From positions 124,001-188,000 of the forward strand of contig NZ_JAEQNA010000004.1 of NCBI RefSeq assembly GCF_016722895.1: a DNA stretch of 64,000 nt, in the 5' to 3' direction. This DNA comes from Ramlibacter aurantiacus (lineage in GTDB: Bacteria > Pseudomonadota > Gammaproteobacteria > Burkholderiales > Burkholderiaceae_C). Positions 46,505 through 50,604 of the stretch are shown here, piece by piece (positions within the stretch are counted from its first letter, which is position 1; every line of letters starts with the position of its first letter). The translations under genes and the position numbers were made by a program. A model generated the notes under the pieces. That model saw only the letters and a list, made by a program, of their open reading frames with translations. It did not search any database and had not been told where the DNA came from.

Positions 46505-47662
46505 TCAGAGTTTCCTGGCCCAGGGCAGGGCCGCCCCCGCGCGCAGGCGCTGGCAATCCAGCGAGAAGCCTGCGCCGAGCACCTTGTCCACATCGCCGAT
46601 CCGCTCGGCCGACAACGCGCGGTGATGCTTGTAGAAGACCGACCGGTCCGAGGTGACGTACACCTTCATGTCCGCACCCTGGTAGTGCCGCATGAACCCG
46701 TCACCTGTCGGGACGACGGTGGACAGGCCAGGCGGAAACTGGCGCGGGCAAAGCGCCTCGAGCCGCTCGAAGGCGGCCAGCGACCGCGGCGGCACCTCGA
46801 GCGGCACTCGCTCTTTGGCGTCAACTGGTGCCAGGGGACAGATCCAGAACCCGGAATTCATCGCCGCATCGCCGGTGCGCGCCTTGAGCGTGCGGCACGC
46901 GGACGCGTCTGCGACGCCCAGGTGCCACTGCTGCAGGAATTGGTCGATGACCGTCAAGGTCTCTGCGCTGGGTTGGCCGCCAGGCCCTGCCCCTGCGGCG
47001 AGCGCCGGCACGATCACGCGCAAGGCTGTCGACGCCGCCAGGAAGGCCCGGGCACGCTTCACGTCGGCGGCGTGCTCACCCACTCCTTGCAGCGTACTGA
47101 GGTTGATCCATCGTGCCGATGCGGGGAACTGCGGCGCCACCAGCGAGTAAGAGATCATCGACACGCCGACGTAGGTCGCTGGCTCCCGCCGGGCCTGCTC
47201 GTCCAGCTCGACCTGCAGGTACGGTCCCTGGCCCCAGTCGATGAACGACCAGCTGCTACCCGGCTGCCACGGCGGGTTCTGCAGCAAAGCCACGCCCTGC
47301 AGCAGCACGGCGCCGGCCGCCAGCGTCAGGCGGAACGAGCGGCTGGCAGGAAGGGCGTGGATCAGCGCGACGCAAAGCACGCCCACCAGCAGCAGGACGG
47401 GAATGAAGTAGCGGCCGTTGCCGGTGGTGGCCAGCCAGGGGACGAAGGCCAGCCAGAGGAAGGCCAGCAGGGCGACGAGCACGGCCGGCAGGCGGCGCCC
47501 GGTCTTCAGCCCCGCACCGATGGCCACGGCCATCAGCACCAGCAGCAGCGCGAAGCGCAGGTCAGGGGCCATGACCTCGATATAGACCCAGGCGTCGGGG
47601 AAAGCCATGGCCAAGGGCCGCAGCAGCCATTCCAGCCAGGTTTCGGGCACGAACCGGTTCAT
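46505..47662 (-). CDS. C-terminal part of a split GT-C-type membrane protein
   Basis: The 385-residue frame starts MNRFVPETWLEWLLRPLAMA, has four hydrophobic helices (about 37-165) and then a soluble periplasmic-type domain to the end. The beginning is what follows the FGNPVYPSYDDLF motif in intact relatives of ArnT/GT39-like membrane glycosyltransferases, and that motif ends the preceding frame. The two frames overlap by ATGA. One extra C in the C6 tract at 47688-47693 would join them as ...LFAPPAGVAGVDAMNRFVPETW... It is either a pseudogene, a phase-variable gene, a sequencing slip, or truly two coupled genes. Confidence 0.7.
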   Translation of the reverse strand: MNRFVPETWLEWLLRPLAMAFPDAWVYIEVMAPDLRFALLLVLMAVAIGAGLKTGRRLPAVLVALLAFLWLAFVPWLATTGNGRYFIPVLLLVGVLCVALIHALPASRSFRLTLAAGAVLLQGVALLQNPPWQPGSSWSFIDWGQGPYLQVELDEQARREPATYVGVSMISYSLVAPQFPASARWINLSTLQGVGEHAADVKRARAFLAASTALRVIVPALAAGAGPGGQPSAETLTVIDQFLQQWHLGVADASACRTLKARTGDAAMNSGFWICPLAPVDAKERVPLEVPPRSLAAFERLEALCPRQFPPGLSTVVPTGDGFMRHYQGADMKVYVTSDRSVFYKHHRALSAERIGDVDKVLGAGFSLDCQRLRAGAALPWARKL

Positions 47663-48483
47663 GGCGTCCACTCCAGCCACTCCCGCAGGGGGGCGAACAG
47701 GTCGTCATAGGACGGGTAGACCGGATTGCCGAACAGGCGCCAGAGCTGAAGGCCCCAGGGCGCATACAGCACGAGGAAAGCGGCCGCGGCCGCGGCGCCG
47801 CCGGCAAGGATCGCGAGCACACGAGCTTTGGTGGTCGTCGCCGACGCCGCCCAGAGCAGCGGCAACAGCACCACCAGTGGACCATTGCTCAACTTCAGCG
47901 CCGTGGCCACGCCGGCGAGTGCGCCGGATGCCCACAGGGCACGAGCAGGGGTGAGCCAGTTCGCGCGATCGGCGTCGAACGGCGCGACCGCGAACGCCAG
48001 GGCCCAGGCCAGGGGGACAGCGGCGACCAGGTCATTGGCCGTGGTTCCGAGACTGAGCAGGATCACGCCGCTCATCACCGCCAGGGCCGTCGCCAGCAGG
48101 CGCATGGCGACATCGAAGGCGCTGGCGCCCGGCATGCAGGCCCTGGCGATCAGCCAGACGGGGGGGACCACCAGGAGTTGCAGCACGGCCAGGACCATGC
48201 CGGCGGTCAGGCCGGAGACACCCGCCGCGGACAACCGGTACAGCGGCCAGTACGAATAGGGGTACTGGTAGCTCTGATAGGACGCCGCCAGGAAATCCTG
48301 GTCGAAGCGCGGCGCGTCGGCCACCCAGCCCAGGTAGATGTGGTGGTTGAGCGTGTCCGAGCTCAGACCCAGGCCACCACCGGCCCAGGGGATGGAGACG
48401 AACAGACAGGCCGCCGCCACCAGCACGATGGCCAGCTCCGCGGACGCGAGGCGCCCGGCCCGGCGCGGTGGCGCTTCACTCAT
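47659..48483 (-). CDS. N-terminal part of a split GT-C-type membrane protein
   Basis: The 274-residue frame has about seven hydrophobic helices. Its first periplasmic loop, GGLGLSSDTLNHHIYLGW, carries an Asp where GT-C glycosyltransferases keep their catalytic acid. It ends LFGNPVYPSYDDLFAPLREW and stops early, next to a run of six cytosines. The start overlaps the upstream GT2 stop by eight bases, placing it in a leftward operon with that gene. Together with the next frame it would make a protein of about 660 residues, a normal size for a lipid-linked-sugar transferase. Confidence 0.7.
   Translation of the reverse strand: MSEAPPRRAGRLASAELAIVLVAAACLFVSIPWAGGGLGLSSDTLNHHIYLGWVADAPRFDQDFLAASYQSYQYPYSYWPLYRLSAAGVSGLTAGMVLAVLQLLVVPPVWLIARACMPGASAFDVAMRLLATALAVMSGVILLSLGTTANDLVAAVPLAWALAFAVAPFDADRANWLTPARALWASGALAGVATALKLSNGPLVVLLPLLWAASATTTKARVLAILAGGAAAAAAFLVLYAPWGLQLWRLFGNPVYPSYDDLFAPLREWLEWTP
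47688..47693. repeat. G6/C6 homopolymer at the break of the split membrane protein
   Basis: Six C on the coding (minus) strand in TTCGCCCCCCTGCGG. Gain of one base restores a single frame through both halves. The tract is long enough for slippage but short for a classic contingency locus. Confidence 0.6.
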
Positions 48484-49738
48484 GGCCGGGCCTGCGCGCG
48501 AGCGAGCGGAAGGCGAAATGCAGGGCGCCGGCGAACAGCGATCCGGCGATGGCCTGCACGCCGACGACCATCAAGGTGACAGCCGGAATCGCTTGCCGCA
48601 TGACCTCGGTGGGATCGAGGGCGCCGAATCCCCCGGCGCCCCATGCCGAAACCAGTCGCGCCGACCAGACCAGCCCGGCCAGCGCCAGCCCGAGGCCGAG
48701 GACCAGGCCGAATTCGACCCGCGCTCGCCGCGCGACCCGCTCCAGCCACGGCGGGCTGGGCACGATGCCGGTCACCACCCCCGCCCACTTGGTGAGGAAG
48801 GCCAGCTGGATGAACTGGAGGCCCAGGATCACCGCGGCTGCCATGTAGAGCAGCGAATGGATGCCGAAACTAACGGGTCCCAGGTGCCAGGGGCCCGTGG
48901 CCGCCAGGCCGAACCCGGCCGCACCAGAGAGCAACAGGAGCGCACCCGGGATCAGGAACAGCCACCTCGGGCTGTACAACAGCATGAACAGCAGGTGCCT
49001 CCACCCATCGCGCCAAGTCCGCAGGTGCGGCGGCCGGCCCCGCCCGTCGGGCCGCAGGCTGGCCGGCACTTCGGCGATGCGGAGGCGGGCGAGCGCAGCC
49101 TTGGCCACCATCTCGCTGGCGAACTCCATGCCGGTGGTCGTCAGCGCCAGCTGCTGGATGGCTCGCCGATCGAATCCCCGCAGGCCACAGTGGAAGTCAC
49201 CGATGGAGATGCGGAAAAACACCCGCCCCAGGAAGCTCAACACGGGGTTGCCGAGGTAGCGGTGCGTCAGGGGCATGGCGCCGGGAGCGATGCCGCCGCG
49301 GAAGCGGTTGCCCATGACGAGCTGCGCGCCCTGGCGCAGCTGCGCCACGAACGGCGCCAGGGATGCGAAATCGTAGCTGTCATCCGCGTCGCCCATGACC
49401 ACGTAACGACCCTGGGCCTGTCGGATACCTTCGGTCAGCGCGGCACCGTAGCCGCGGATCTCGGCCCTCACCACCCGTGCGCCAGCGGCCGTGGCCCGTT
49501 CGGCCGACCCGTCGCTCGATCCGTTGTCGACCACCAGCACTTCGCCAGTGATGTCACTGGCGGCGAGGAAGGCCCGCGCCATCTGAACGCAGCGGCCGAC
49601 CGTGTTGGCCTCGTTCAGGCAGGGCATGAGGATCGTCAGCTCGAGCTCCCCACTTGCGTCGAGCGGATCAGGGCAGGCGACACCGGCGCCAAGGGCGCTG
49701 CGCGCGGCGTCGGCATTCGGTGCCTGGAGTATCTGCAT
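48476..49738 (-). CDS. Membrane-anchored family 2 glycosyltransferase (dolichyl/undecaprenyl-phosphate type)
   Basis: The 420-residue protein begins with a GT2 domain: LTILMPCLNEANTVGRCV, VLVVDNGSSDGS, RGYGAALTEGIRQAQGRYVV and MGDADDSYDF with the metal motif. It continues with four hydrophobic helices from about 258 on. This pattern is that of DPM1/GtrB-like enzymes, which load a sugar on undecaprenyl phosphate, supplying a donor for GT-C enzymes on the periplasmic side. The downstream gene is such a GT-C-like protein. It is the first gene of the leftward operon, and a group II intron remnant ends six bases before its start codon. Confidence 0.9.
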   Translation of the reverse strand: MQILQAPNADAARSALGAGVACPDPLDASGELELTILMPCLNEANTVGRCVQMARAFLAASDITGEVLVVDNGSSDGSAERATAAGARVVRAEIRGYGAALTEGIRQAQGRYVVMGDADDSYDFASLAPFVAQLRQGAQLVMGNRFRGGIAPGAMPLTHRYLGNPVLSFLGRVFFRISIGDFHCGLRGFDRRAIQQLALTTTGMEFASEMVAKAALARLRIAEVPASLRPDGRGRPPHLRTWRDGWRHLLFMLLYSPRWLFLIPGALLLLSGAAGFGLAATGPWHLGPVSFGIHSLLYMAAAVILGLQFIQLAFLTKWAGVVTGIVPSPPWLERVARRARVEFGLVLGLGLALAGLVWSARLVSAWGAGGFGALDPTEVMRQAIPAVTLMVVGVQAIAGSLFAGALHFAFRSLARRPGHE

Positions 49739-49744
49739 GCTGGA

Positions 49745-49821
49745 ATCGGGATAGGAGGGCCGCTATCGTAGCGGCCGCCCCTCCCACACCACCCGGCGTG
49801 CGGGTCCGCACCGGGCGGTTC
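49745..49821 (-). ncRNA. Domains V and VI and 3' boundary of a group II intron remnant
   Basis: The 34 bases at 49788-49821 fold on the minus strand as domain V does: a lower helix, a two-base CG bulge on the 3' side and an upper helix TGCG/CGCA with a tetraloop. Directly after comes a long stem with an unpaired A eight bases from its end, as in domain VI with its branch-point. The sequence ends CCCGAT at 49745, matching the AY ending of group II introns. Domains I-III are missing, so it cannot splice by itself. Confidence 0.75.
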
Positions 49822-49833
49822 GAGCGCTTGAGG

Positions 49834-50041
49834 TCATGAGAGACGAGGCAGGCCGAGTCGGTCGAAGTGGGCGATGGTCAGCACGCGGTCGATCTCTCCG
49901 GCGCTGTTGCGCCCGGCGGCCCGACTGCACGCAGGCGCGGGCTTGCCGCACCGCGTCCTGTGCCCGCCGGCCCGCGCGGAAGCCGTGGCTGTGATCGCTG
50001 AAGGTTGGATCGATGCAGGAGTGCGCCCACGCTGGGCGCAC
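49834..50041 (-). pseudogene. Group II intron reverse transcriptase/maturase fragment, internally deleted
   Basis: The minus-strand frame from 50041 reads CIDPTFSDHSHGFRAGRR and DAVRQARACVQSG, a hallmark of the first reverse transcriptase blocks of intron-encoded proteins (usual form DPTFSDHSYGFRPGR). After about 45 residues the frame and homology break. A second frame ends FDRLGLPRLS and a stop at 49834, which fits a maturase C-terminus 12 bases before domain V. Most of the roughly 400-residue enzyme, including the catalytic YADD block, has been lost. The remnant abuts the pilin terminator on its 5' side. Confidence 0.8.
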
Positions 50042-50045
50042 AAAG

Positions 50046-50076
50046 AAAAAAGGGGCATGCAGCGCACGCCCCTTTC
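50046..50076 (-). terminator. Rho-independent terminator of the pilin gene
   Basis: On the minus strand AAAGGGGCGTGC, loop GCT, GCATGCCCCTTT forms a 12-pair stem (one G-U), followed by TTTTTTC. It begins 16 bases after the pilin stop codon. It is the clearest terminator in the window and fits a strongly expressed single gene. Confidence 0.9.
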
Positions 50077-50091
50077 AGATCGATAAATCGA

Positions 50092-50604
50092 TTAGGTCGG
50101 GGAGAACGTGCCGTCCGGCGTCACGGTTGCCTTGCACGAGCCGGGGAGGAACTTGCCAACCGTCGACAGGTCGGCAGTAGACCCCACGCCGCAGCTCCAC
50201 TGACCCACCTGAGCGGGGATTGCTGCCTTGGTCAGCGCGCCGCCGGTGTTGGTCTGCGGTGCCAGGTAGACGTACTTGTCGTCCAGCGCGGTGTCGATGC
50301 CGGGGTTGATCTGGACGCGGATCTGGCCGTTCTCGCTGGTCGAGATCTGCTTGATGTACTTGCTGGTCTGGACCGAGCTCTCGCAGCCCCAGCCGCCGGC
50401 GCTGACGCTGGTCGACGATGCCGATTGGTACGCCTCGGTGATGGTGGTGCGGCAGGCCGAAGCTGCCAGGACCACTTCGGACATCTTCGCCCGCTTGGTG
50501 TAGTCCTGGTATGCCGGCAGTGCCACGGCGGCCAGGATGCCGATGATCGCGACGACGATCATCAGTTCGATCAGGGTGAAACCCTTTTGCATTTGACGCT
50601 TCAT
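50092..50604 (-). CDS. pilA: Major type IV pilin
   Basis: The 170-residue prepilin has the short leader MKRQMQKG, cleavage/methylation site FTLIE (G8/F9, Glu +5) and the helix [22 protein letters not shown], all classic for type IVa pilin. The globular domain has four cysteines: ASACR, GWGCESS, SCGVGS and LPGSCK; the last two likely form the D-loop. The start has GGAG six bases upstream. A sigma-54 promoter, tandem upstream repeats and a strong terminator surround it, as expected of the main fibre subunit controlled by a PilSR-type system. The nearby ATPase gene reads towards it. Confidence 0.95.

Follow-up and report, generated by a model that had tools for sequence, protein, structure and literature searches.

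The window, i.e. the whole analysed stretch of 64,000 nt from Ramlibacter aurantiacus, carries on its minus strand a pilA-like type IV pilin gene with its intrinsic terminator, followed by a family 2 glycosyltransferase gene (Table 1). The pilA stop codon and the glycosyltransferase ATG are 353 nt apart. An initial annotation had read 49745-50041 of this spacer as a decayed group II intron, and we confirm at exactly this place a relic of 297 nt (50041-49745, minus strand). Its 3' end (49745) is followed after six bases by the glycosyltransferase ATG (49738), just as the annotation had stated. Without the relic the spacer would measure 56 nt, and the one plain effect of the relic is this longer gap between the two genes.

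Table 1. Features of the pilA-glycosyltransferase spacer and further intron relics of the R. aurantiacus genome. Positions refer to the window unless a contig (C1, C12) is named.
Feature	Position	Strand	Support or remark
Family 2 glycosyltransferase gene, 420 aa	48476..49738	-	Pfam Glycos_transf_2, 6.5e-25
Domain VI hairpin, unpaired A at 49752, end ...CCCGAT at 49745	49748..49785	-	RF00029, 3' end alignment, fold, pair counts
Domain V stem with two-base bulge	49788..49819	-	RF00029, fold, pair counts
Maturase C-terminus (RNSAGEIDRVLTIAHFDRLGLPRLS, stop TGA 49836-49834), different frame, intron positions from about 1670	49834..49913	-	BLASTP, blastn
Reverse transcriptase (RT) scrap (IDPTFSDHSHGFRAGRR...), intron positions about 811-913	49914..50014	-	TIGR04416, BLASTP, blastn
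Intron 5' terminus (GTGCGCCCAGCGTGG...), intron positions 1-27	50015..50041	-	C1 relic, G045 intron, class C consensus
pilA intrinsic terminator, insertion target; T tract reaches the intron 5' end	50048..50076	-	Terminator scan (stem of 13 pairs with T run)
pilA-like type IV pilin gene, 170 aa, upstream neighbour	50092..50604	-	Pfam Pilin 1.1e-12, N_methyl 3.4e-10
Second relic, 394 nt (L012)	C1:1389224-1388831	-	Keeps domain I, RF02001 87.4 bits
Third relic, 263 nt	C12:14054-14316		5' end weakly supported
More decayed relic (L013)	C1, about 1188.2 kb		Behind a three-tRNA cluster (Rfam)

Remains of a group II intron in the pilA-glycosyltransferase spacer

The Rfam model RF00029 (Intron_gpII) matches 49820-49745 on the minus strand over its whole length (model positions 1-77) with 39.2 bits and an E-value of 3e-6 in 551 bases (cmscan, E-value mode). 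An Infernal search with Rfam models had been proposed together with the initial annotation, and the match ends at 49745 as foreseen, if under the gathering score. It stays 0.8 bits below this score (40), which is why the run over the whole window at gathering thresholds lists no match. In the 5.1-Mb genome three RF00029 matches are found at E ≤ 1, all of them under gathering and the window relic being the best. As a reference we used the intact intron (1,834 nt) of a congener, G045. Among 11 loci searched jointly at E ≤ 0.01 the model lists three (L143, L137 and the C1 relic of Table 1) and misses all G045 copies, the intact ones included. RF00029 is generally weak on this intron lineage; hence a low score alone is no sign of decay. 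Six further matches from the E-value mode (ASpks, DapZ, STnc320 twice, SECIS_2 and sR30) are far under their gathering scores and were dismissed as chance.

The 87-nt stretch 49736-49822, comprising domains V and VI, is predicted to fold with a z-score of -3.97, and none of 200 shuffles was equally stable. The two-base bulge of domain V, domain VI and the unpaired A eight bases before the intron end had all been noticed in the initial annotation and agree with RF00029 and with the fold. The domain V triad is CGC, as is usual for group IIC. We aligned nine 3' ends, namely three relics of R. aurantiacus (the one on C12 placed manually) together with six copies of the congeners G045, G049 and G056; the extraction pattern missed the C1:1188 relic as well as the G019 and G035 copies. 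Using a structure derived from the relic's own fold, which biases the test in its favour, the 19 named pairs of domains V and VI are formed in 171 of 171 cells, compared to 39-56% of the cells in slid controls. Four of the 19 pairs are changed on both sides (covariation; shuffled mean 0.8).

The intron protein is reduced to two scraps, well below the TIGR04416 cut-off. The RT scrap scores 24.8 bits with this family (E 1e-5, profile positions 89-121; cut-off 300 bits) and is identical to an intact intron protein in 20 of 36 residues (BLASTP, single comparison, E 2e-10). The underlying DNA is 67% identical to the intact G045 intron over 103 nt (blastn). The maturase end shares 19 of 45 residues with an intact intron protein (BLASTP, single comparison, E 6e-8) and stops at the same terminal serine, while its DNA matches at 80% over 137 nt, continuing into domain V. 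Pfam gives no match in either relic frame. RT residues, then a frame change, then a maturase C-terminus with stop codon is what the initial annotation had described. Each of these elements is borne out, and so is its expectation of a reverse transcriptase match within 49834-50041. Small open reading frames listed here (49763-50067) are scraps and should not be annotated as genes.

The relic keeps both intron termini. It begins with GTGCG at 50041 and ends with AT at 49745, in line with the group II end consensus GUGYG ... AY (PMC4028801). GTGCGCCCAGCGTGGGCGCACTCCTGC at 50041-50015 agrees in 25 of 27 bases with the beginning of the second relic of this genome, on C1, and in 18 of 19 with that of the intact G045 intron. 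The class C boundary consensus, GUNYGCCNRGCAUGG ... CCUACYCGAU (PMC4028801), is matched at 14 of 15 positions at the 5' end. At the 3' end, CCTATCCCGAT has one base in excess of the consensus, as have the six aligned congener copies. The 5' block is short (27 nt); allowing one mismatch, the published class C consensus for this end occurs once in the window (1.32 expected), and an ad hoc 5' pattern with up to three mismatches twice (1.45 expected). Since the motif alone is not significant, the case for the 5' end rests on its position and on the second relic.

Three blocks are collinear with the G045 intron: relic positions 1-19 correspond to intron positions 1-19, 28-130 to 811-913 and 129-265 to 1670-1806. 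The last 11 nt correspond to the last 11 of the intron. Between the blocks there are two internal gaps of about 0.78 and 0.76 kb, so that 297 of 1,834 nt (16%) are retained, with deletion lengths measured against a homologue from another species and not against the parent copy. The initial annotation was right about a deletion, but had assumed one instead of two; likewise, its statement that the 3' half remains holds for the 3' end but overlooks the surviving 5' terminus at 50041. Domains I-IV give no Rfam match in the window relic, and the alignment with the G045 intron shows this region to be absent. Hence we class the element as a relic and not as a working intron.

Assignment to group IIC and further copies

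Class C introns are described as inserting behind Rho-independent terminators (PMC3522654 and PMC4424553). As expected for group IIC, the window relic stands directly behind an intrinsic terminator. This terminator of pilA, a typical IIC target, was like the 5' terminus absent from the initial annotation. Searching six genomes for the intron 5' end yielded 20 places in four genomes, 18 of them with enough upstream sequence, among these both R. aurantiacus copies with a clear 5' end. Without a random control for either count, a hairpin is predicted just upstream in 18 of 18 cases, and at least five T are present in the last 16 bases before the intron in 17 of 18, the exception in G056 having four. 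The other two R. aurantiacus relics also lie behind a hairpin with T run.

Moreover, the best match of the intact G045 protein (508 aa) among solved structures is the GsI-IIC RT (6ar1, 445.9 bits), followed by 7uim (308), 5hhj (263), 5hhl (258), 6me0 (136.9) and LtrA (120.6 bits); the protein lineage is thus read by best match on the intact relative's protein and not on the relic. Rfam finds domains I-IV in the congeners' copies, with group-II-D1D4-3 above gathering in seven congener loci and in the C1 relic. Judging from its sequence features, the relic belongs to the group IIC (class C) introns. It resembles GsI-IIC and B.h.I1 (as named in PMC4424553) in terminator site, class C 5' end, domains V/VI and, by best match, the protein lineage of its intact relative. 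In contrast to these it has lost the larger part of domains I-IV and of its protein, and no activity on its own is expected.

The R. aurantiacus genome, a draft of 28 contigs with 99.78% completeness, contains four recognisable intron copies, the window relic and the three others of Table 1. No intact TIGR04416 intron protein was found in it, the only match being the window scrap. The 394-nt relic on C1 is flanked on one side by the terminator of a presumably rplS-like gene and on the other, after 8 nt, by the ATG of a gene that we take from its motif to be NUDIX-like. At the 3' end it is identical to the window relic in 108 of 110 positions; both probably stem from one recently active lineage. 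Of the three tRNA genes ahead of the relic at 1188.2 kb on C1, the outer two seem by eye to be identical.

A TIGR04416 protein over the cut-off occurs in 10 of 60 genus genomes. The relic DNA is matched in 5 of these 60 and, at family level, in 44 of the 399 genomes sampled; both counts include the own genome, and the two sets overlap. As up to 12 candidates per genome were scored for the genus and two for the family, copy numbers are lower bounds. G045 has 14 copies of the intron 5' end with at most one mismatch, several of them near contig ends; this congener looks like a case of recent expansion.

Inactivated class C fragments have been described before: those of So.gl.I1 left in the genome of S. 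glossinidius (PMC3522654) are comparable to the window relic. In R. aurantiacus, by contrast, our search revealed no full-length copy, and the window fragment keeps both ends. In the literature searched we found no report of a group II intron in Ramlibacter, nor one linking a group II intron with a pilin, a terminator and a glycosyltransferase. Judged from titles and the opening of abstracts, what it held on intron fragments, downstream genes and promoters was off topic.

Insertion into an older spacer and decay

Three of the relatives have 100% matches to named loci, from Ramlibacter rhizophilus (G017), Caenimonas sedimenti (G018) and R. ginsenosidimutans (G008), which makes Ramlibacter in the GTDB sense the probable genus. 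All 60 genus genomes have a pilB-like match, with paralogues counted. Of the 30 loci from the pilB search one is the window's own; the others come from 29 different genomes. In 13 of these 29 the glycosyltransferase follows pilA; the remaining 16 reach a contig end, have a second pilin next or show no match within the stretch. A terminator is seen by eye in all 13 pilA-glycosyltransferase loci, and none of the 13 has an intron in the spacer. In the 13 relatives, 73-175 nt separate the pilA stop from the codon at which glycosyltransferase homology begins (query residue 19-33). In the window residues 19-33 are 407-449 nt away from the pilA stop, or 110-152 nt when the 297 nt are subtracted. As this corrected distance is within the range of the relatives, the intron entered an old pilA-glycosyltransferase spacer. 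No empty site was seen in the same species.

The glycosyltransferase is not universal, being found at E ≤ 1e-60 in 31 of the 60 genus genomes with the own one counted, and the relic lies on its upstream side. To this extent the location at the edge of an accessory cluster, as proposed in the initial annotation, is justified. However, the same gene order without intron in 13 of 29 loci indicates that the insertion makes no border of its own.

Taken together, it is almost certain that a group IIC intron inserted behind the pilA terminator and was afterwards cut down to the 297-nt relic by two internal deletions. The identity of the element, both ends, the site, the missing middle and the lack of an intron in the relatives read are observed. 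A mobile intron of ~1.8 kb with RT/maturase would have entered the spacer directly behind the pilA intrinsic terminator, presumably by reverse splicing and co-directional with both genes. Two internal deletions would then have taken most of domains I-IV and most of the open reading frame, the order of events being our inference. What survives is the first 27 nt, a piece of about 100 nt from the RT region, and the 3' end carrying domains V/VI. Owing to the loss of domain I, with the exon-binding sites, and of the protein, the relic should neither splice nor move on its own; this loss of activity, like the absence of an important function, we infer. What we describe is ordinary decay of a mobile element of a well-known kind. 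The Ramlibacter genome thereby retains a clear fossil of a retroelement that seeks terminators, and the case illustrates how such an element can move a pilin gene and the glycosyltransferase gene that follows it further apart.

Alternative readings and neighbouring observations

One may ask whether GC-rich DNA merely resembles an intron by chance, given that the stretch is indeed GC-rich, RF00029 remains below gathering, the RT match is short and the 5' motif alone is not significant. Yet several independent features stand in proper intron order (RT scrap, maturase end, domain V, domain VI, 3' end), the relic matches the intron of a congener by blastn with E 1.1e-31, the pairs are kept with covariation and the blocks are collinear with an intact intron. 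Chance is therefore refuted, its probability being negligible: 50041-49745 is a remnant of a group IIC intron. A short, non-autonomous intron, still mobilised in trans by the protein of another intron, would account for the two preserved termini, the intact domains V/VI and the several short, internally deleted copies in the genome. This is nevertheless very improbable, since the three relics compared have each their own deletion points. The same deletion form is absent among the matches listed for the 60 genus genomes (up to 12 candidates each) and the 399 family genomes (two each). Listed matches outside the own genome begin at relic position 126 or later, with the sole exception of an RT-region match in G056 (query 31-100) inside an intact intron. 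Moreover, domain I is gone and, as stated, an intact TIGR04416 protein was not found. The differing deletion points and the lack of a second listed copy of the deletion form disfavour a family of mobile mini-introns.

Unlikely as well, if to a lesser degree, is a co-option of the relic as leader of the glycosyltransferase gene, with the domain VI hairpin or a hidden promoter setting expression after the intron had ended read-through from pilA. The short distances to the start codon, here and at the NUDIX-like gene on C1, would suit this idea. Domains V/VI are the best-kept part between the two relics and fold stably, and the complete relic, extended into the beginning of the glycosyltransferase gene (321 nt), has a fold z-score of -2.63. 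Furthermore, an active outward promoter is reported for the IIC-attC intron S.ma.I2, likewise a IIC intron ahead of a co-directional gene (review PMC8876359). In contrast to S.ma.I2 the window site is a terminator and not an attC, no promoter was found and the intron is mostly deleted, perhaps including any outward promoter. A scan of 49600-50200 for sigma-70-type promoters gave 0 sites, leaving the promoter supply suggested in the initial annotation unsupported. A TACGAT in the domain VI loop was considered as -10 element and rejected as no fitting -35 was seen by eye. By eye there is also no Shine-Dalgarno-like stretch near the glycosyltransferase ATG. The likeness of the two relics is accounted for by their recent common origin, and since IIC introns land behind terminators, a following gene nearby is to be expected anyway. 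An effect of the relic on the glycosyltransferase is unproven and we see no sign of function, though the domain VI hairpin so near to the start codon might affect translation. The more general notion that IIC introns nested behind terminators, when they decay with their ends preserved, provide co-directional genes (the glycosyltransferase gene, the NUDIX-like gene on C1) with domain V/VI hairpins as new 5' leaders and change the coupling of these genes to the gene before the terminator is, to our estimate, slightly less probable still. The decayed insertion described above would matter more only if transcript mapping showed the relic driving or insulating the glycosyltransferase gene.

In several relatives (spacers of L145-L173) a -10-like hexamer (TANNNT or GATAAT) is seen by eye within a few bases upstream of the glycosyltransferase start codon, an arrangement that would fit a leaderless transcript. 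Behind the glycosyltransferase gene of the window two open reading frames of 274 and 391 aa (46505-48483, minus strand) overlap, by eye with ATGA. Neither has a Pfam match at E ≤ 0.01. Both have matches, with their order kept, at all nine loci of relatives that were tried (eight genomes), and they may represent two halves of one membrane sugar-transfer protein.
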